From NCBI RefSeq assembly GCF_008728835.1, contig NZ_CP042582.1, positions 5,501,001 to 5,565,000 of the forward strand: 64,000 nucleotides of DNA, in the 5' to 3' direction. Both the position numbers and the translations under genes were made by a program. The stretch's first letter is position 1; the number at the start of each line of letters is the position of its first letter. This DNA is from Hypericibacter adhaerens. Its GTDB lineage: Bacteria > Pseudomonadota > Alphaproteobacteria > Dongiales > Dongiaceae. The notes beneath the pieces are model-generated. The model was not told the origin of the DNA. It worked only from the letters and a program-made list of their open reading frames with translations, and ran no database searches. This document shows, in pieces, positions 4,445-54,826 of the stretch.

Positions 4445-4927
4445 ATGCGGGGTCCAGCATGCCAGCTGGCATTCATCGCCATTGCCGGCAGCCTGTCGTT
4501 GCTTTCATTCCCATGCCATGCCGATCAAACCCTTCTCAGTGCCGATCGCATCGGTTCGATCGATGCGGTGGCCTTGACGGATCAGGAGATGGGCGATTCG
4601 CGCGGCACCGGCTTCGTCACGGCTCTCACGCAAGGGCTGCTCGCGGCCCTGTCGAAAGCGGCCAATGCCGCGGCTTCTGCTCAAGGAACGGAGACGGGCG
4701 CGGCCGTCACCGGCTTCCTGCCCGCGCTCCTGGCCGTGCTGCCGCCCGGCAATACCGTCTCGGCGCAGATCGACGATCAGCCGACCGTGACGATGAACGG
4801 CCTCGGCCCGCAATCGCTCGGCTGCGGCGGCGGCCTCTCCTGCGGGCCGAATATCTCCATGTCCCTGTCGAGCAGCCTGGGATCGGCTTCGGCCCAAACC
4901 TCGATGGGTGGTGCCACCCTGCACTGA
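4445..4927 (+). CDS. Unknown secreted protein B, paralogue of the previous gene
   Basis: About 160 residues from the ATG at 4445, which follows GCGGAGG at good spacing; an upstream ATG at 4391 has no ribosome site and would bury the signal peptide. A hydrophobic core ends at FPCHADQ, suggesting export. It repeats the design of protein A: LTDQEMxxSRGTGFV, a Gly/Ala-rich centre, then QIDDQPTVTMNGLGPQSLGC, GGGLSC and a Ser-rich tail. The region 4223-4444 between the paralogues holds no gene I can support. The pair looks like an ancient tandem duplication. Function unknown. Confidence 0.75.
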   Translation: MRGPACQLAFIAIAGSLSLLSFPCHADQTLLSADRIGSIDAVALTDQEMGDSRGTGFVTALTQGLLAALSKAANAAASAQGTETGAAVTGFLPALLAVLPPGNTVSAQIDDQPTVTMNGLGPQSLGCGGGLSCGPNISMSLSSSLGSASAQTSMGGATLH

Positions 4928-49091: not shown

Positions 49092-50093
49092 ATGGATGGT
49101 TCGGTGACAGCCTTGCCGGCGGGAAGCAGGCGCGCCCGTGCCGCCGCATTCGGCACGCCCAAGCCGGGCGGACGGATCGCCAGCGTGGCCTTCCACGGCA
49201 TCGATGTGCTGGGCGTGGATGTCCAGGTCCAGACGGCCTCGGGCATTCCCGCCTTCGCCGTGGTGGGGCTGCCCGACAAGGCGGTGGGCGAAAGCCGCGA
49301 ACGGGTGCGCGCGGCCCTCGCCTCGCTAGGCCTGGCGCTGCCGCCCAAGCGCATCATCGTCAATCTGGCGCCGGCCGACCTCAACAAGGAGGGCAGCCAT
49401 TTCGATCTGCCGATCGCGCTGGCGCTGCTGGCCTCGATGGGCGTGCTGCCCGGTGCCGAGCTCGACCGTTACGCGGCGCTGGGCGAGCTGGGTCTCGACG
49501 GACGCATCGCCGCCGTCGCCGGCGTGCTGCCCGCCGCGATCAGCGCGGCGCAGCGGGGGCTGGGGCTCATCTGCCCGGCCGAGCAGGGCGGCGAGGCCGC
49601 CTGGGCCGGCGAGCTCGAGGTGGTGGCGGCACCGAGCCTGCTCGCCCTCATCAATCATTTCCGCGGCAGCCAGGTGCTGCGTCCGCCCGAGCCCAGGGTC
49701 GCGGCGCCGGAAGGCGCCCCGCTCGATCTCGCCGACATCAAGGGCCAGGAGAGCGCCAAGCGCGCGCTCGAAATCGCGGCCGTGGGCTCGCATAACCTTT
49801 TGATGTGCGGTCCTCCTGGCTCGGGCAAATCGATGCTGGCGCAGCGCCTGCCCGGAATCCTGCCGCCGCTCGAGCCGGCCGAGGCGCTCGAGGTCAGCAT
49901 GATCCATTCGGTCGCGGGCGTGCTGGCCGAAGGCCGGTTGCTGCGACGGCGTCCCTTCCGCGATCCGCATCATTCGGCGACGCTGGCGGCCTTGACCGGC
50001 GGCGGCTCGCGCGCGAAGCCCGGCGAGGTCTCGCTCGCGCATCTGGGCGTCCTGTTCCTGGACGAACTGCCCGAGTTCCCCGGAATTATGTAG
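49092..50093 (+). pseudogene. comM: comM (YifB) N-terminal fragment, cut by the transposon
   Basis: The first 329 codons of a ComM/YifB AAA+ protein are intact. They show the N-terminal domain ([37 protein letters not shown]), the Mg-chelatase-like ATPase with Walker [12 protein letters not shown], and Walker [11 protein letters not shown]. Translation then enters the insertion and stops five codons later at 50091. ComM is a branch-migration helicase that aids integration of DNA taken up by natural transformation. The fragment lacks sensor and arginine-finger regions and is not expected to work. Confidence 0.95.
50073..50080. repeat. Left 8-bp target duplication
   Basis: GAGTTCCC directly abuts the left end of the insertion and recurs at 54197-54204 after its right end. 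Joining the flanks through one copy restores LPEFPRSALESL of comM in frame. Eight bases is the duplication length of the IS1595 family. Confidence 0.93.
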
Positions 50094-50104
50094 CAGTCTC
50101 ACCT
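50081..50104 (+). repeat. Left terminal inverted repeat
   Basis: The 24 bases beginning CGGAATTATGTAGCAG are the exact reverse complement of 54173-54196; the next base differs. The stop codon of the endonuclease gene lies inside it, so the coding cargo reaches the very edge of the element. Confidence 0.95.
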
Positions 50105-50735
50105 AGAGGTTATTGAGCGCCGGCGATGGCTTCAGCGTCGGTTCTCTCAAATACAATTCATCTAGCAGCGCCTTAAAGAAAGTCGTCCCCTTCGCGTCCA
50201 TATCTTCGACGTGGGAAATGCGTTGGCCGGGCGGACGGCTACTATTGATCCTGATTAACCAAGCAGCCTCGATGAGACCCTGATTCCAAAGCGGCGCCTT
50301 CCGAATTGCGATTTTTCGCAAGTTGGATTCGAAATGGTCGGCCCAGGTGCTTCCGTCTCGGCGCTTAGAATCTTCGTGTTCATCTACAATGACGACATAG
50401 CCAATGACGATTTCCGGCGAAAGTTGCTGCACGTTCGCAGCTTCGCCCATTAGATCATCAAGCCGGTTCGGCACCGTCCCGGCCAGGTTTTTTAAGATAG
50501 ATTTCAGGGAAATAAGCAAGCGGGGTTTCCCCGCCAAGACGTACGCCAAGTCCCAATCCTTTTGGCGCCCCAGGCCACGAATACCAACTTCGTTGGCCTT
50601 GCCGCCCTGGACCCCTGGCAATCCCTCCCGCGCAAACGCTTCAATGCAGTGAGTCGCCAGCGTGTCTAGCCGGCCGGGATCTTGTGTTGGCCGTTTTAGG
50701 AGGTCGTCAACGGCGTCGGAGAGGGTGATTGGCAT
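50103..50735 (-). CDS. Type II restriction endonuclease candidate
   Basis: The 210-residue protein overlaps the end of the methyltransferase gene by 40 bases, typical of a restriction partner. A PD-(D/E)XK-like core is visible: KANEVGIRGLGRQKDWDLAYV followed by PRLLISLKS, with D62 and the S-L-K triplet at 76-78 as likely metal and catalytic residues. NLAGTVPNRLDDLMGEAANVQ follows. I cannot assign a recognition sequence or a named enzyme family. Its stop lies within the terminal inverted repeat. Confidence 0.75.
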   Translation of the reverse strand: MPITLSDAVDDLLKRPTQDPGRLDTLATHCIEAFAREGLPGVQGGKANEVGIRGLGRQKDWDLAYVLAGKPRLLISLKSILKNLAGTVPNRLDDLMGEAANVQQLSPEIVIGYVVIVDEHEDSKRRDGSTWADHFESNLRKIAIRKAPLWNQGLIEAAWLIRINSSRPPGQRISHVEDMDAKGTTFFKALLDELYLREPTLKPSPALNNL

Positions 50736-51715
50736 TCAACCAATGTTGCTTTTCTTGCCCCAAATTGCCGATGGCGGTCGATCTCGGCCTTAATGCGCGC
50801 CTCGGCCAGAGCAAGGTATTTGGGCTCGATCTCGCTGCCAATAGAGTTTCTACCTGTCCGGATGGCCGCGACGGTTGTGGACCCGGTTCCGATGAAAGGG
50901 TCCAGAACAGTGTCGCCGGCAAAAGAGAACATCTTAACAAGCCGCTCGGCGATCTCGGCGGGGTATGGGGCCGGGTGCCCAGATCGGGTTGATGCTCCCC
51001 GGATATCGGTCCAAATGGAGCGCCACCACGATTGCATTTCCTCTTTGGTCAGCATCGAAAGGGCTTTTTGCTCGGGTGATACCTTCCGGTATTCGCCACC
51101 CTTCCGCAGGAACAGGATGTACTCAATATCGTTCTTGACGATGGCGCCGGGCTGATATGGCTTGCCATAGAACCCGGCCCCGTTGCCTTCGGCCTCGGTC
51201 ACGCCGTTGGCGATCTTGTGCCAAAGGATCGGCGTCAGGCAGTCGAGACCGATGGAGCGCGCCCGCACCTGAATATCAGCGTGAAGCGGCATGACATAGT
51301 GTCGCTTCCCTTGCTTCCTCGAAATGCAAACGTCGCCAACCACGCAGCAAATCCGGCCGCCAGGGACAAGCACCCGCGCGCATTCCCGCCATACGCGATC
51401 CAACTCCGTTAGGAATTGCTCGTAGTCCGCGATGGCGCCCATCTGATGCTTGTGGTCGGCGTACTTTTTCAGCGTCCAGTAGGGCGGGGAGGTAACAACC
51501 AAATGCACCGAGCTGTCGGGAATCCATGAAAGGTCGCGTGCATCCCCGAGGCGAAGGTGGTGCTCCGTCGCGTCGAAAGGCGCCGGCCACGGCAGCTTGC
51601 GGTATTGCTCATTGACCTTACGGAGCCGCGCCAGCGCCCGCGAGGTGGCATCATTCACCGGAAGGCGGGTCAGCATCGGCCCTTGATCAGAGGCTGGGAA
51701 GCTACCGTCCATCAC
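50696..51715 (-). CDS. Site-specific DNA methyltransferase (beta class, probably N4-cytosine)
   Basis: The 339-residue enzyme has motif IV TSPPY at residues 75-79 and the AdoMet-binding motif I DPFIGTGSTT at ~272-281. That order defines the beta class of amino-methyltransferases. The S-P-P-Y form favours N4-methylcytosine over N6-methyladenine, but does not prove it. The long middle region should hold the target recognition part. Its ATG overlaps the stop of the HTH gene and its end overlaps the endonuclease gene, so the three are one operon. It protects host DNA from the partner nuclease. Confidence 0.9.
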   Translation of the reverse strand: MMDGSFPASDQGPMLTRLPVNDATSRALARLRKVNEQYRKLPWPAPFDATEHHLRLGDARDLSWIPDSSVHLVVTSPPYWTLKKYADHKHQMGAIADYEQFLTELDRVWRECARVLVPGGRICCVVGDVCISRKQGKRHYVMPLHADIQVRARSIGLDCLTPILWHKIANGVTEAEGNGAGFYGKPYQPGAIVKNDIEYILFLRKGGEYRKVSPEQKALSMLTKEEMQSWWRSIWTDIRGASTRSGHPAPYPAEIAERLVKMFSFAGDTVLDPFIGTGSTTVAAIRTGRNSIGSEIEPKYLALAEARIKAEIDRHRQFGARKATLVECQSPSPTPLTTS

Positions 51716-51945
51716 AGATTCTCCAGGTGAATTGTTCGGCAGCCGATAGCTTCAAGGCACTGGAAAAGGAAGATGGCCGTAAATGTGCCACGGTTAATTT
51801 TGTTCTTTATATTCAATTCGTTATCTTTTACCCCGATGGCCGATAGCCTCTCCGCCAGATCGGCATAGCTCAAGCCCTGCCGTTTCAGCTCGGCCTTGAG
51901 CGTTCCCTTGACCTTGGCTTTCCAGTCCTTGCCCTTGGCGGCCAT
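51712..51945 (-). CDS. Small HTH protein (DUF6471-like), candidate R-M controller
   Basis: The 77-residue protein begins with a Lys-rich helix (GKDWKAKVKGTLKAELKRQGL) and continues as a compact helix-turn-helix: SYADLAERLSAIGVKDNELNIKNK, then INRGTFTAIFLFQCLEAIG. This fits the DUF6471 family as I recall it. It is the first gene of the R-M operon, overlapping the methyltransferase start as ATGA, the position taken by C (controller) proteins in other systems. Palindromes that could bind it flank both divergent promoters. A regulatory role is inferred. Confidence 0.75.
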   Translation of the reverse strand: MAAKGKDWKAKVKGTLKAELKRQGLSYADLAERLSAIGVKDNELNIKNKINRGTFTAIFLFQCLEAIGCRTIHLENL

Positions 51946-51969
51946 CTTTGGAGTCCGGATTCGATAACG

Positions 51970-51993
51970 AAAGGCATCATAAGCGATGCTTTT
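51970..51993. promoter_or_regulatory. Inverted repeat at the R-M operon -10 region
   Basis: AAAGGCATC (51970-51978) and GATGCTTTT (51985-51993) pair at eight of nine bases around a six-base spacer and cover the -10 box of the R-M promoter. The GGCATC/GATGC half-sites recur in the palindrome at 52024, suggesting one regulator for both. Confidence 0.5.
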
Positions 51994-52004
51994 CCGGTTG
52001 ACAA
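51976..52004 (-). promoter_or_regulatory. Promoter of the R-M operon
   Basis: On the minus strand TTGTCA (52004-51999), 17 bases and TATGAT (51981-51976) are each one base from the sigma70 consensus at ideal spacing, 31 bases before the HTH gene. Its -35 shares bases with the -35 of the transposase promoter on the other strand. Confidence 0.75.
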
Positions 52005-52025
52005 GCCAACTTGAGGCACTATATT
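51998..52025 (+). promoter_or_regulatory. Promoter of the transposase gene
   Basis: TTGACA (51998-52003), 16 bases and TATATT (52020-52025) form a strong sigma70 promoter 31 bases before the transposase ATG. Five bases of its -35 are also the -35 of the divergent R-M promoter, so two polymerases cannot easily bind at once. Confidence 0.75.
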
Positions 52026-52044
52026 TGATGCCAACGGTATCAAA
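52024..52044. promoter_or_regulatory. 21-bp near-perfect palindrome between transposase promoter and start
   Basis: TTTGATGCC (52024-52032) and GGTATCAAA (52036-52044) pair at eight of nine positions around AAC. The site begins at the -10 box and ends 11 bases before the transposase start, a natural repressor site. Its GATGCC half-site matches those at the R-M promoter. Confidence 0.6.
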
Positions 52045-52055
52045 AACGGTGCTTT

Positions 52056-53018
52056 ATGGCCCAACACTTCCTCCTATCCACAGCCGCAAGGACGCTCTCC
52101 CTGAGCGTCGTTGCGCGCATGTCGGATGAGGAAGCCCGGGTCGCCTTCCAGGCGATCCGCTGGGCCGACAACGGCGGCCAGCCCTATTGCCCCAAGTGCG
52201 GTTGCCTCAAGGTCTATGGCTTCAAGACGCGGCCGGTCTGGAAATGCAGCGCGTGCCGCCACCAGTTTTCGGTTACGTCCGGAACCATCTTCGACAACCG
52301 CAAACTGCCGGTTCGGGATTATCTGCTTGCCATCGCGATCTTCGTGAACGGCGCCAAGGGCCATAGCGCCCTTCAACTCAGCCGGGATCTGAATTGCCAA
52401 TACAAGACGGCCTTCGTTCTCGCCCACAAGCTGCGGGAAGCGATGGGCGCCACGCTTGACGACGGCACCGAGTTGAAGGGCGAGGTTGAGGTTGACGGCC
52501 TCTATGCCGGCGGCCACCGCAAGCCCGCTAACGAGGTTGCGAACCGCGTTGACCGCCGCTTGGCCGAGGAACAGACCGGCAAGCGCCAGGTCGTGGTTGT
52601 AATCCGCGAGCGCAATGGCCGGGCGCTGCCCTTCGTGTTCCGCAAGGAAAGCGACGCCATCCCGACCATCCGGGCAAAGGTGGCATCGGGGACGATCCTC
52701 TTTGCCGACGAAAGCCGCCAGTGGGACGCGCTTCATGCCTCTTACGACACGCGGCGGATCAATCATTCCGAGGCTTACAGCAAGGACGGCGCTTCGACGA
52801 ATTGGGCCGAGTCCTACTTTGCCCGTCTGCGCCGCGCCGAGATCGGAACGCATCACCGCATCAGCGGCGCCTATATCGGCGCCTATGCGAACGAAATGGC
52901 GTGGCGGGAAAACATGCGCCGCACCGCTAACGGTTCACAGTGGCGCAAGGTCATGGGCGCCGCGATGGCCCATCCCGTTAGCGGGAAATGGGCCGGTTAT
53001 TGGCAGCGGAGCGCCTGA
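52056..53018 (+). CDS. IS1595-family (ISXO2-like) transposase
   Basis: The 320-residue transposase has an N-terminal zinc ribbon (C45-X2-C48, C64-X2-C67 in CPKCGC and CSACRHQF), a helical middle, and an ISXO2-like catalytic domain. The latter has D147 in EVEVDGLYAGG, D218 in ILFADES, and the TNWAESYFARLRR...GTHHRISGAYIGAYANEMAWREN signature. This gives the D-D-N/E pattern of IS1595 elements. It cuts and joins the terminal repeats, leaving 8-base duplications as seen here. It is full length with no frameshift, so the element may be active. Confidence 0.95.
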   Translation: MAQHFLLSTAARTLSLSVVARMSDEEARVAFQAIRWADNGGQPYCPKCGCLKVYGFKTRPVWKCSACRHQFSVTSGTIFDNRKLPVRDYLLAIAIFVNGAKGHSALQLSRDLNCQYKTAFVLAHKLREAMGATLDDGTELKGEVEVDGLYAGGHRKPANEVANRVDRRLAEEQTGKRQVVVVIRERNGRALPFVFRKESDAIPTIRAKVASGTILFADESRQWDALHASYDTRRINHSEAYSKDGASTNWAESYFARLRRAEIGTHHRISGAYIGAYANEMAWRENMRRTANGSQWRKVMGAAMAHPVSGKWAGYWQRSA

Positions 53019-53452
53019 TGGAAAATGATCATGTCCTGAGCGGCCTAATTCGCAAGCGCGCCGAACTGGCGGGAGAGATCGACCATCTCGCGACGGTCGT
53101 TCAACAGAAGATGATTGAATTGGACCATCTCGACGCCACGATCCGCATATTCAAGCCCGACATTGATCTTGAGACGGTGAAACCCAGGACCGTGCCGCCG
53201 CGCCATCAGGCACTTCCGGGCGAAATGATCCGCGGCGTGTTGACGGTGCTGCGCGAGAGTAAGGCGCCGCTTTCCTCGATGGAAATCACGCTGCGGCTGA
53301 TGGAGCGCCGTGTGATGAACACGGCCGACAAGATGTTAGTCCGCACCGTCTCAAAGCGGGTTGTCGCGTGCGTCCGTCACAGCCGCGCCAAGGGGCTGCT
53401 TCGCTCGACCAAGACGCCGGGGCAGCAACTCCTTTGGGAGATCGCGCGCTAA
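53018..53452 (+). CDS. Transposon accessory protein, coiled coil plus winged-helix-like
   Basis: The 144-residue product starts at an ATG sharing one base with the transposase stop (TGATG), so it is translationally coupled. Residues ~8-45 form a coiled coil (LIRKRAELAGEIDHLATVVQ). After a Pro-rich hinge, residues ~70-140 look like a winged helix (GEMIRGVLTVLRESKAPLSSMEITLRLMERR, then RTVSKRVVACVRHSRAKGLL). A DNA-binding helper of transposition is plausible. No named family is recognised. Confidence 0.8.
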   Translation: MENDHVLSGLIRKRAELAGEIDHLATVVQQKMIELDHLDATIRIFKPDIDLETVKPRTVPPRHQALPGEMIRGVLTVLRESKAPLSSMEITLRLMERRVMNTADKMLVRTVSKRVVACVRHSRAKGLLRSTKTPGQQLLWEIAR

Positions 53453-53667
53453 GCCATATCATCGTCGGTGAGGTAGCCCGCTTTGTGAGCGTCGCGTACC
53501 CCGGCCTCAATCATAGATGTCATGATCTTGGGAACGCTGGTGCCGTGAGTGCCGCGTTTCTTCAGTTTTCTCAGTCTCTCAATGGTCTTGAGCGATAGCG
53601 TGCAATAGCGCCGCTTATTCGGTTCTTCTTCTTCGTCTGCATCAACGGTGTCATCGGCCGGGGCCAT
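53449..53667 (-). CDS. Small acidic-basic protein, possibly ribbon-helix-helix
   Basis: The 72-residue protein has an acidic start (DDTVDADEEEEP), then RRYCTLSLKTIERLRKLKKRG and a helical remainder ending GYLTDDDMA. A short strand followed by two helices is suggestive of a ribbon-helix-helix DNA-binding protein. It converges on the accessory gene, overlapping its end by four bases. Real, but function unknown; a shadow frame cannot be fully excluded. Confidence 0.5.
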   Translation of the reverse strand: MAPADDTVDADEEEEPNKRRYCTLSLKTIERLRKLKKRGTHGTSVPKIMTSMIEAGVRDAHKAGYLTDDDMA

Positions 53668-53804
53668 TAGGGCACTCTAACGCCCATCAATCTGCGGATC
53701 GAGTCGTTGATGCAGATTTGCAGCTATAACGCACCCTTTTCGGTATGAAATCGCATCCTTTTTGTCCTTGACCCCTAGTCGGCACCAGGGCACCATCGGA
53801 ACAC

Positions 53805-53836
53805 AAAAAAGAGCCGGCCATCCGAAGATGACCGGC
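53805..53836 (-). terminator. Rho-independent terminator after the 38-codon gene
   Basis: On the minus strand GCCGGTCATC, loop TTCG and GATGGCCGGC (one G-T pair), positions 53836-53813, run into TCTTTTTT. It is a textbook terminator 22 bases after the small gene stop. Confidence 0.9.
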
Positions 53837-53858
53837 CCAGTTTGCGGTTAGGCTCGGC

Positions 53859-53975
53859 TTACCGGATTGGCGGGCGGCGGTAGTGAGAGCACACACTCTC
53901 CCAGCCGCCGTGCCGCAACCGGAGATAGGACCGCACATAGACGGTCTTCTCGCCGAGCGGGCTGATGACGTTCAT
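53859..53975 (-). CDS. 38-residue unknown protein with strong ribosome site
   Basis: The ATG at 53975 follows AAAGGAGG at five to six bases, one of the best ribosome sites in the window. The product runs MNVISPLGEKTVYVRSY, then LRLRHGGWESVCSHYRRPP and stops at 53859; a strong terminator follows. It is basic, with one cysteine and several aromatic residues, and would be soluble. Nothing is known to me about this sequence. Its complete expression signals within a transposon suggest a genuine passenger gene. Confidence 0.7.
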   Translation of the reverse strand: MNVISPLGEKTVYVRSYLRLRHGGWESVCSHYRRPPIR

Positions 53976-54118
53976 CGTTTCCTCCTTTCCCGGAGCGCCT
54001 TAGCTCCGCCGCCTATTCAGAGCCGGCGGCCGGTGGGAAGGATTCGCGAACGTTCAAGCCAGCATCAGGAATCCATAAGTAACCGAGGGAAGTCAACTAG
54101 GTTTTGGGGGTCTTCCCA

Positions 54119-54172
54119 GGACAACAACAAGATGTTGTCCCATTAAATCCCATGTCGTCTCACTAAATCCCA
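54119..54172. repeat. Right-end hairpin and two 20-bp tandem repeats
   Basis: GGACAACA (54119-54126) and TGTTGTCC (54133-54140) form a perfect inverted repeat. Overlapping it, two 20-base units stand head to tail at 54133-54152 and 54153-54172, identical at 17 of 20 bases (ending ATTAAATCCCA / ACTAAATCCCA). They directly adjoin the right terminal repeat and have no counterpart at the left end. They may be extra transposase-binding sites. The stretch 53976-54118 holds no gene I can support. Confidence 0.8.
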
Positions 54173-54196
54173 AGGTGAGACTGCTACATAATTCCG
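54173..54196 (-). repeat. Right terminal inverted repeat
   Basis: The 24 bases AGGTGAGACTGC...ATTCCG mirror the left end exactly. They are followed by the GAGTTCCC target duplicate at 54197-54204. Confidence 0.95.
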
Positions 54197-54826
54197 GAGT
54201 TCCCGCGCAGCGCGCTCGAATCGCTGCGCCAGCCGCTCGAGACCGGCCGCGTCACCGTGGCGCGCGCGGCCGCGCATGTGACCTATCCCGCGCGTTTCCA
54301 GCTGATCGCGGCGATGAATCCCTGCCGCTGCGGCCATCTGGGCGATGGATCGCGCGCCTGCGGCCGCCAGCCCCGCTGCGGCCAGGATTACCAGGCGCGG
54401 CTCTCGGGCCCGCTCCTGGACCGCATCGATCTGGCGATCGAGGTGCCGGCCGTGAGCCCCGCCGACCTGACCCTGCCACCCTCGGCCGAGCGCAGCACCG
54501 ATGTCGCGAAACGGGTCGCGGCCGCCCGTGCCTTCCATCGCGCCCGCGTCGAACAGCTCATGAGCGAGGCGAACGCGCCCACGCTTCCGCCGCCGCGCTG
54601 CAATGCCGAGCTCGATGGCGGCTGGCTCGAGGCGCTGGCCTCGCCCGACAGCGAGGGCCGCAAGCTCCTCGCCCAGGCGATCGAGCGCTTCCACCTCTCG
54701 GCCCGCGGCTATCACCGCATCCTCAAGCTCGCCCGCAGCTTGGCCGACCTCGAGGCCGAGCCCCAGATCCGCCGCGTGCATATCGCTGAGGCGCTGTCCT
54801 ACCGGCAGATGCAGGCGGGACTCTAG
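54197..54826 (+). pseudogene. comM: comM C-terminal fragment after the transposon
   Basis: The second part of ComM resumes at the duplicated target (EFPRSALESLRQPLETGRVTVARA). It includes the conserved NPCRCGHLGD zinc-like region, SGPLLDRIDLAIEVPA and the C-terminal LSARGYHRILKLARSLADLE. A stop codon at 54176 inside the element precedes it in frame and there is no ribosome site at the join; an ATG at 54257 could only give a fragment. Together with 49092-50080 it would encode a protein of about 536 residues. Confidence 0.95.

Follow-up and report, generated by a model that had tools for sequence, protein, structure and literature searches.

The stretch of DNA analyzed here, referred to as the window, comprises 64,000 nucleotides of the Hypericibacter adhaerens genome (contig NZ_CP042582.1, positions 5,501,001 to 5,565,000) and contains, at its positions 50081-54196, an IS1595-family transposon inserted in the comM gene. 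This element is probably an autonomous transposon whose cargo is a captured restriction-modification (R-M) pair of Type II-like character, formed by a DNA methyltransferase (M) and a putative restriction endonuclease (R), and in which the small protein DUF6471 would repress both the promoter of the transposase and that of the R-M genes. A broader proposal is advanced only tentatively, i.e., that the transposon repressor acts as the control protein of the captured R-M pair, so that transposition and restriction are released and silenced together, and that addictive or defensive transposons of this kind have arisen several times in this insertion sequence (IS) family, with different enzymes.

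The element and its insertion site

Both ends of the element (50081-50104 on the forward strand, and the reverse complement of 54173-54196) read CGGAATTATGTAGCAGTCTCACCT and are identical at 24 of 24 positions. The 8 bases GAGTTCCC flank the element directly on both sides (50073..50080 and 54197..54204), and the 5' and 3' parts of the interrupted comM lie beyond them on the forward strand (49092..50080 and 54205..54826). When the flanks are fused with one GAGTTCCC copy, a continuous 536-amino acid (aa) ComM frame is obtained, and in G001, a congeneric genome, comM (locus L151) is uninterrupted and presents one GAGTTCCC at the matching position. The element is approximately 4.1 kb long, has one transposase gene and one pair of ends, and has a G+C content of 58.1%, versus 68.5% in the remainder of the window.

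The transposase (52056..53018, forward strand, 320 aa) was identified by Pfam, NCBIfam, and alignment, and has a DDE_Tnp_IS1595 domain (PF12762 at 6e-41 and NF033547 at 8.4e-41, above the cut-off) preceded by an N-terminal zinc ribbon (PF12760 at 6.2e-13), with residues D147, D218, and E252 being invariant in the six aligned sequences, i.e., that of the window and five relatives. The end of this gene is overlapped by an accessory gene (52988..53452, forward strand, starting either at the ATG at 52988 or by a TGATG restart at 53018), which has no Pfam match at E <= 1 and is recognized in the transposon clade by an iterated profile. The original prediction, made from the letters of the window, of an IS1595-type transposon with both ends fixed, a comM frame left intact by its removal, and an intact transposase with a coupled accessory gene, is thus confirmed.

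Two other explanations of the ends were rejected. A composite transposon with two flanking IS copies is at odds with the single IS1595-type transposase and the single end pair, and chance is at odds with the performance of the end-finder, which accepted only 1 of 200 loci with shuffled flanks (40 elements, five flank shuffles each).

Survey of the transposon clade

An alignment of the six transposases was scanned over the GTDB genomes, which returned 438 relatives, 80 of which were kept, and further relatives from plasmid and whole-genome searches brought the set to 107 loci. Loci L001-L021 (the window itself, short or cut duplicates, and distant loci) were left out of this set, although L006 would also be delimited. 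The 107 loci resolved into 80 distinct delimited elements, 25 that could not be delimited, and two exact duplicates, where delimited means inverted ends with an 8-bp duplication, which is exact in 77 of the 80 elements, the one in the window included; the two duplication mismatches of L042 are the letter N, and L074 and L076 come from the same genome.

The delimited elements are 1.1-7.6 kb long (median 3.87 kb), and a relative of the accessory gene is found in 79 of the 80, on either strand, whereas the M and the R of the window are each found in only one. As judged from these sequences, the typical layout of the clade is an end repeat, a variable left cargo slot, the DUF6471 gene, divergent promoters with palindromes, the transposase, a variable right slot, the accessory gene, and the second end repeat. 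In the window element, the left slot is filled by M and then R, so that the gene order runs leftward from 51945 through DUF6471, M, and R, which overlap one another, and rightward from 52056 through the transposase and the accessory gene.

The cargo of the other elements was scanned in two rounds, the first with 130 open reading frames (ORFs) of at least 140 aa in 65 of the initial 68 elements, the window element not being counted, and the second with 23 ORFs of at least 100 aa from 9 of 11 later elements. Among the matches listed, which were those of the best 25 of 34 families and, in another listing, of the best 25 of 83, there were Panacea antitoxin-like proteins (at least five ORFs), KilA-N (at least five), P63C (at least three), Abi_2 (at least one), IrrE-type peptidases (at least one and at least two), and a PemK-like toxin (at least one), together with many ORFs of no family.

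Some additional features of the clade were also observed. Taking the most frequent base at each position of the target duplications of the 80 elements gives GAAATTTC, which is palindromic, and the largest delimited relative (L130, 7610 bp) carries an RmrA/CapP-like regulator (3.5e-148 to the RmrA model) and other cargo. A family of proteins of approximately 310 aa, for example at positions 97-1062 of the L051 element, occurs in 16 of the 80 elements, and in 14 of these it lies directly behind DUF6471 on the same strand, i.e., in the place of M in the window element; these proteins appear membrane-like, with a hydrophobic N-terminal stretch as judged by eye.

The remaining features of the window element lie in its right part. 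A small gene of 72 aa with no family match (53449..53667, reverse strand) has a relative in 2 of the 80 elements, and is 83.6% identical over 61 aa to a gene of L064, whose transposase is only 59% identical, a likeness that may reflect exchange between elements. A terminator-like hairpin found by the terminator scan lies at 53811..53838 on the reverse strand, although such sites as a class are no more frequent than in shuffled sequences (four found, versus 5.0 expected).

DUF6471 and the regulatory region

The DUF6471 gene (51712..51945, reverse strand, 77 aa) is matched by PF20075 at 2.8e-30 and is predicted to encode an XRE/C-protein-like transposon repressor. Its structural model is a four-helix domain, with a predicted local distance difference test (pLDDT) score of 87.4, and the top PDB matches are C.BclI, with a root-mean-square deviation (rmsd) of 1.7 Å, a Silicibacter DNA-binding protein, HipB (mostly 2.5 Å or more), and C.Esp1396I (1.5-2.0 Å), which reach probabilities of up to 0.99, yet have weak E-values, of 0.26 or worse. 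The gene is present in 55 of the 80 delimited elements, and in all 55 it lies upstream of, and divergent from, the transposase. Because 54 of these elements have DUF6471 without the M and R of the window, it is regarded here as a gene of the transposon. In a sample of 318 genomes, an IS1595 transposase was found in the short flanks of 14 of 25 DUF6471 places; among the 14 places with the best DUF6471 matches (E <= 1.4e-25), this was so for 13.

Between DUF6471 and the transposase lie, back to back, the two highest-ranking of the five promoter-like sites of this region. That of DUF6471, M, and R, TTGTCA-17-TATGAT (51976..52004, reverse strand), matches 10 of 12 consensus positions, and that of the transposase, TTGACA-16-TATATT (51998..52025, forward strand), matches 11 of 12. 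The -10 box of each is covered by an operator-like palindrome, GCATCATAAGCGATGC (51974..51989) on the side of DUF6471 and GCACTATATTTGATGC (52016..52031) on that of the transposase, with the consensus GCATCATATNCGATGC.

This consensus was derived visually using 11 sequences, ten of which belong to the final set; a site was defined as a match of at least 11 of 15 positions within 140 bp upstream of the transposase, with the ten source elements being set aside. Such a site was found in 38 of the 45 held-out elements with DUF6471 versus none of the 25 elements without it, and the density of sites was 11.97 per kb upstream of the transposase versus 0.386 per kb elsewhere in the same elements. Given this co-occurrence, the survey suggests that DUF6471 may serve to repress IS1595 transposons and that the palindrome is a candidate operator, and most likely DUF6471 is the transposon's own autorepressor, to which M and R have become attached from behind.

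Some observations count against this interpretation. DUF6471 is absent from 25 of the 80 delimited elements, and at the stricter level of 12 of 15 positions the palindrome is found in only 25 of the 45 held-out elements (versus none of the 25 without DUF6471). The hold-out was also not fully blind, given that, when the consensus was chosen, a table of the common 8-mers of all 55 elements could also be seen, and, of the five sites that reach 12 of 15 in the 64-kb window, three lie outside the promoter region of the element.

DUF6471 genes are also found apart from transposons. In the host genome, approximately 18 kb to the right of the element and beyond the window, there is a solo DUF6471 gene (L181:7347-7595) that lacks an IS1595 transposase in the adjacent 1.5 kb; the 16 kb examined showed no convincing element end, and three operator-like palindromes (12/15) lie upstream of the gene. 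The related genome G001 has a solo gene that is 81% identical to this one over 196 bp, in another neighbourhood, with two weaker palindromes (11/15) 61 bp apart. The solo DUF6471 of the host could cross-repress the transposon.

The connection between DUF6471 and the R-M genes is close, with a TGATG overlap at DUF6471/M and a 40-nt overlap at M/R. Because M and R are overlapped behind DUF6471 in this way, restriction has seemingly been plugged into the repressor circuit of the transposon, and the three genes would be read as a single transcript. In line with such coupling, 18 of the 55 DUF6471 elements have a same-strand ORF of at least 150 aa that begins adjoining the DUF6471 stop. On the other hand, the R-M genes may be cargo expressed independently of DUF6471 through an internal promoter, with the overlap being incidental. 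Internal promoters are common in R-M genes, and 37 of the 55 DUF6471 elements lack a same-strand ORF of this kind. Independent expression is nevertheless unlikely, since the two overlaps leave no gap between the genes and a consensus scan, covering sigma-70-type sites, found no minus-strand promoter-like site from 51945 to 50103.

The methyltransferase and the putative endonuclease

M (50696..51712, reverse strand) has 338 aa when read from its ATG, or 339 when read from the GTG codon just before it. The match to PF01555 (1.5e-40) identifies it as an N4/N6 DNA methyltransferase, and it has the motifs TSPPY at residue 74 and then DPFIGTGST at 271, the SPPY motif suggesting an N4-cytosine enzyme. 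The best solved relative is PDB 2zie (4e-99 across 262 residues), which we take to be TTHA0409; the likeness to this type of enzyme extends over the 262 aligned residues, whereas the structure was deposited just as a putative modification methylase.

The case of R (50103..50735, reverse strand, 210 aa) depends on its relatives, their alignment, and a predicted model. The model, built from a three-sequence alignment, has a pLDDT of 78.5 and a predicted template modeling score of 0.80, and resembles nucleases of the BbvCI, NucC, BstEII, and EcoRI types. BbvCI is the top Foldseek match at 3e-4, a moderate resemblance given its TM-score of 0.37 and rmsd of 11.5 Å. A second structure aligner is led by NucC, BstEII, and BbvCI (Z 9.6, 9.6, and 9.0, with an rmsd of 3.6-4.1 Å over 144-158 residues), with matches of Z 9.6-8.8 having an rmsd of 3.6-4.2 Å, although unrelated folds appear already from Z 7.2. 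In the comparison with viral structure models, a named restriction endonuclease ranks second (1.5e-4). Residues W61-D62 and S76-L-K78 are kept in all three aligned sequences, which places S-x-K where D/E-x-K would be expected, i.e., a variant site. The fold of R is thus likely, though not certain, to be that of a PD-(D/E)XK-like nuclease, and with these moderate scores R is considered a putative restriction endonuclease. Besides the modest structural scores and the variant site, this assignment has to contend with the lack of any match for R in Pfam (at E <= 1), in NCBIfam, or by sequence in the PDB, and with a PADLOC match that is weak (0.024) and not shared by its two relatives.

Of these two clear relatives, L107 belongs to genome G275 and is 46% identical across the part that matched, and L116 belongs to a contig of a viral collection (43%); both, at an identity of 42-46% to R, adjoin a relative of M. 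At L107, the M relative (57%) is in tandem with R and overlaps it, and at L116 the M relative (58%) is convergent with R. Because the pairing persists despite the changed orientation, it argues for M and R being a functional pair that was captured by the transposon, and the predicted pairing of the two genes is upheld; as a working pair, they would share a recognition site. Neither a transposase of the window type nor DUF6471 was found by tblastn in 17 kb around the L107 pair (L123) or in the 10.6 kb of L116, no search for end repeats being made at these loci. The occurrence of the same genes in other genomes without terminal repeats or target duplication had been named by the original prediction as an argument against the element, and it is taken to hold for M and R at these loci, where no such transposase was found; this points to the capture of an existing pair rather than to evidence against the element.

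Alternatively, R may not be a restriction enzyme but a different kind of partner, or a nuclease in decay, and M would then be an orphan methylase serving to protect or time the transposon. The weakness of the family evidence for R and the lone methylase that rides another IS1595 element (L186, below) favor this, but relatives of R and M adjoin each other at two loci that differ in orientation, all three sequences retain D62 and S76-L-K78, and nucleases lead both structure comparisons, all of which makes an orphan methylase quite unlikely.

The same loci bear on whether DUF6471 is instead a dedicated control (C) protein of M and R, a complete C-M-R unit having been captured. Its predicted fold is nearest to C.BclI and near C.Esp1396I, it stands first in the operon, and it is preceded by the palindromes. 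At L116, moreover, a small ORF that by eye resembles a helix-turn-helix (HTH) protein lies upstream of R (4492-4797), so that the pair may have had its own regulator elsewhere, a point that also counts against the main reading. However, this ORF has no DUF6471 profile match (probability 0.6%, E 0.09) and no plausible PDB sequence match, tblastn returned no DUF6471 in the surroundings of the M-R relatives of L123 and L116, the palindromes flank the transposase promoter as well, and the 54 other delimited elements have DUF6471 without this R-M pair. A dedicated C protein is therefore very improbable, and DUF6471 as a gene of the transposon is preferred. The overlapping HTH-methyltransferase-endonuclease genes of the original prediction stand as far as the overlaps are concerned, and what falls, given those 54 elements, is the attribution of the regulator to the R-M system. 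A transposase-like ORF was also noted by eye beyond M at L116 (6742-7767).

R is rare in the collections searched. Queries with the R of the window and of L107 found no match in 72,556 plasmid records, the R of the window found none in 50,697 phage records, and a single viral contig was matched. In 385 genomes of the host's class, the R of the window had two matches, one of them the host itself, and a three-row profile of R had four, of which G275 alone was strong; in 398 genomes of the phylum, the R of L107 had eight, i.e., the host and seven weak ones (E 1.3e-4 to 0.0093). G275 contains, in addition, a second weak R match (L122) and, close to its M-R pair, a piece of 65 residues, and no M relative was found within the short flanks of the weak R places (L109-L115 and L119-L122).

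In the host, the 24-mer end occurs at only two places in the 5.87-Mb genome with up to three mismatches (the reversed control has none), and the nearest other transposase match, the sole further one, is 33% identical. Given this single copy, and the presence of this R-M pair in 1 of the 80 delimited elements, it may be argued that the left slot was filled after the insertion, i.e., that a resident transposon captured the genes locally and is not a mobile R-M carrier. The repeat search found no second pair of end-like repeats between the M-R genes and the ends, and the stop codon of R extends 2 bases into the left terminal repeat, which makes a local capture not very likely. It must be conceded to this alternative that no second M-R pair was found within such ends, and that one copy does not establish that M and R move together with the ends. 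The preferred reading remains that of a transposon which carries the pair as its own cargo and which may still be mobile at the present day.

Other methyltransferase and restriction-modification carriers

Other IS1595 loci also carry methylases. The element L067, from Magnetospirillum sp. 64-120, belongs to the same clade, is 4805 bp long with 22/24 ends and an exact duplication, and carries a C5-methylase (PF00145, 1.1e-68) and a NotI-like nuclease (PF12183, 3.3e-9; PADLOC Type II nuclease, 4.6e-40), neither of which resembles the M and R of the window. L067 stands apart from the window element in the transposase tree, and its sister L068 has a KilA-N protein instead.

Two further cases come from 16 more distant loci (transposase match below 50%, short flanks), of which L007 and L014 had M matches and were re-examined as L185 and L186. 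L186:5990-8582, from a member of the host's bacterial family, is a 2593-bp IS1595 element whose ends match and whose duplication is exact, and it carries a lone 541-aa DNA methylase beside the transposase, with a weak Mrr-like C-terminal match, below the cut-off. At L185:6022-8677, a transposase, an N4/N6 methylase (PF01555), and an HNH nuclease (PF01844) lie in a row between inverted repeats that were spotted by eye in the flanks and afterwards tested against shuffles, matching at 21 of 23 positions where the best of 20 shuffles had 18; no 8-bp duplication was found. The methylase of L185 is 27% identical to M, and its nuclease is unlike R.

Methylases are thus present on four IS1595 backbones, and three of these also have a nuclease, with L185 counted as a probable case; we read these carriers as separate captures. 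The window element is therefore not alone, considering L067 with its different R-M pair and, more distantly, L185 with a methylase and an HNH nuclease and L186 with a methylase only.

A proposed model of shared control

The overlaps that join DUF6471, M, and R make the three genes look like one operon, and the model would run as follows. Dimers of DUF6471 would bind the palindromes at the -10 boxes, thereby repressing their own operon as well as the transposase. A cell that the element has just entered has no repressor, so that the transposase, the repressor, M, and R would all be produced there, in a manner that resembles zygotic induction, and the accumulation of DUF6471 would then damp transposition and the R-M operon together, placing both under one switch. 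Afterwards, M would protect the chromosome while R would cut unmethylated incoming DNA, and a host that lost the element would be left exposed to residual R, which may render the element addictive.

Comparison with known systems and significance

Each component of this arrangement has known counterparts. IS copies with passenger genes exist, as noted in a passage of PMC3129680 (citing Siguier 2009). These transporter IS (tIS) share with the window element a zinc-ribbon and DDE transposase, inverted ends, an 8-bp duplication, and internal genes not involved in transposition, and the difference is that the cargo here is a methylase-nuclease pair that overlaps the repressor gene of the element. 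An ISNwi1 subgroup with passenger genes is reportedly named in Siguier 2009. R-M systems flanked by IS copies, one of them from Rhizobium, are cited in a passage of PMC3031569. Such composites are similar in that an R-M pair may move by transposition, whereas the window has one autonomous element, with a single end pair holding both the transposase and the R-M genes.

Tn7-like elements are larger, multi-protein, and targeted. They also have R-M modules as cargo, and have another transposase family, whereas the window element is 4.1 kb long with one transposase gene. In an excerpt of PMC8649781, which gives a figure of 947 transposons, R-M modules are described as the commonest defence cargo. 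Finally, the regulation of R-M systems by C proteins is treated in a passage of PMC3874152, and the BclI and Esp1396I systems resemble the window element in that their operon begins with a small XRE-like regulator and palindromes occur at divergent promoters; the difference is that the regulator in the window is that of the transposon, common to elements without this R-M pair.

Titles and the openings of abstracts yielded no report of an R-M pair within an IS1595 element, although Siguier 2009 may list methylases, and the literature search found no paper naming DUF6471. R-M systems on transposons and IS with passenger genes are thus already known, and an M-R pair inside an IS1595 element, behind its predicted repressor, would be a new variant, of which a prior description is possible.

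Plasmids, phages, IS-flanked transposons, and Tn7-like elements are all known vehicles of R-M systems. The carrier in the present case is very small, an autonomous element of 4 kb resembling an insertion sequence, whose family members have acquired different methylases and methylase-nuclease pairs. If the proposed wiring is true, it would provide a testable answer to two questions, namely how a naive genome can survive the arrival of a restriction gene, and by what means a transposon may become difficult to lose.

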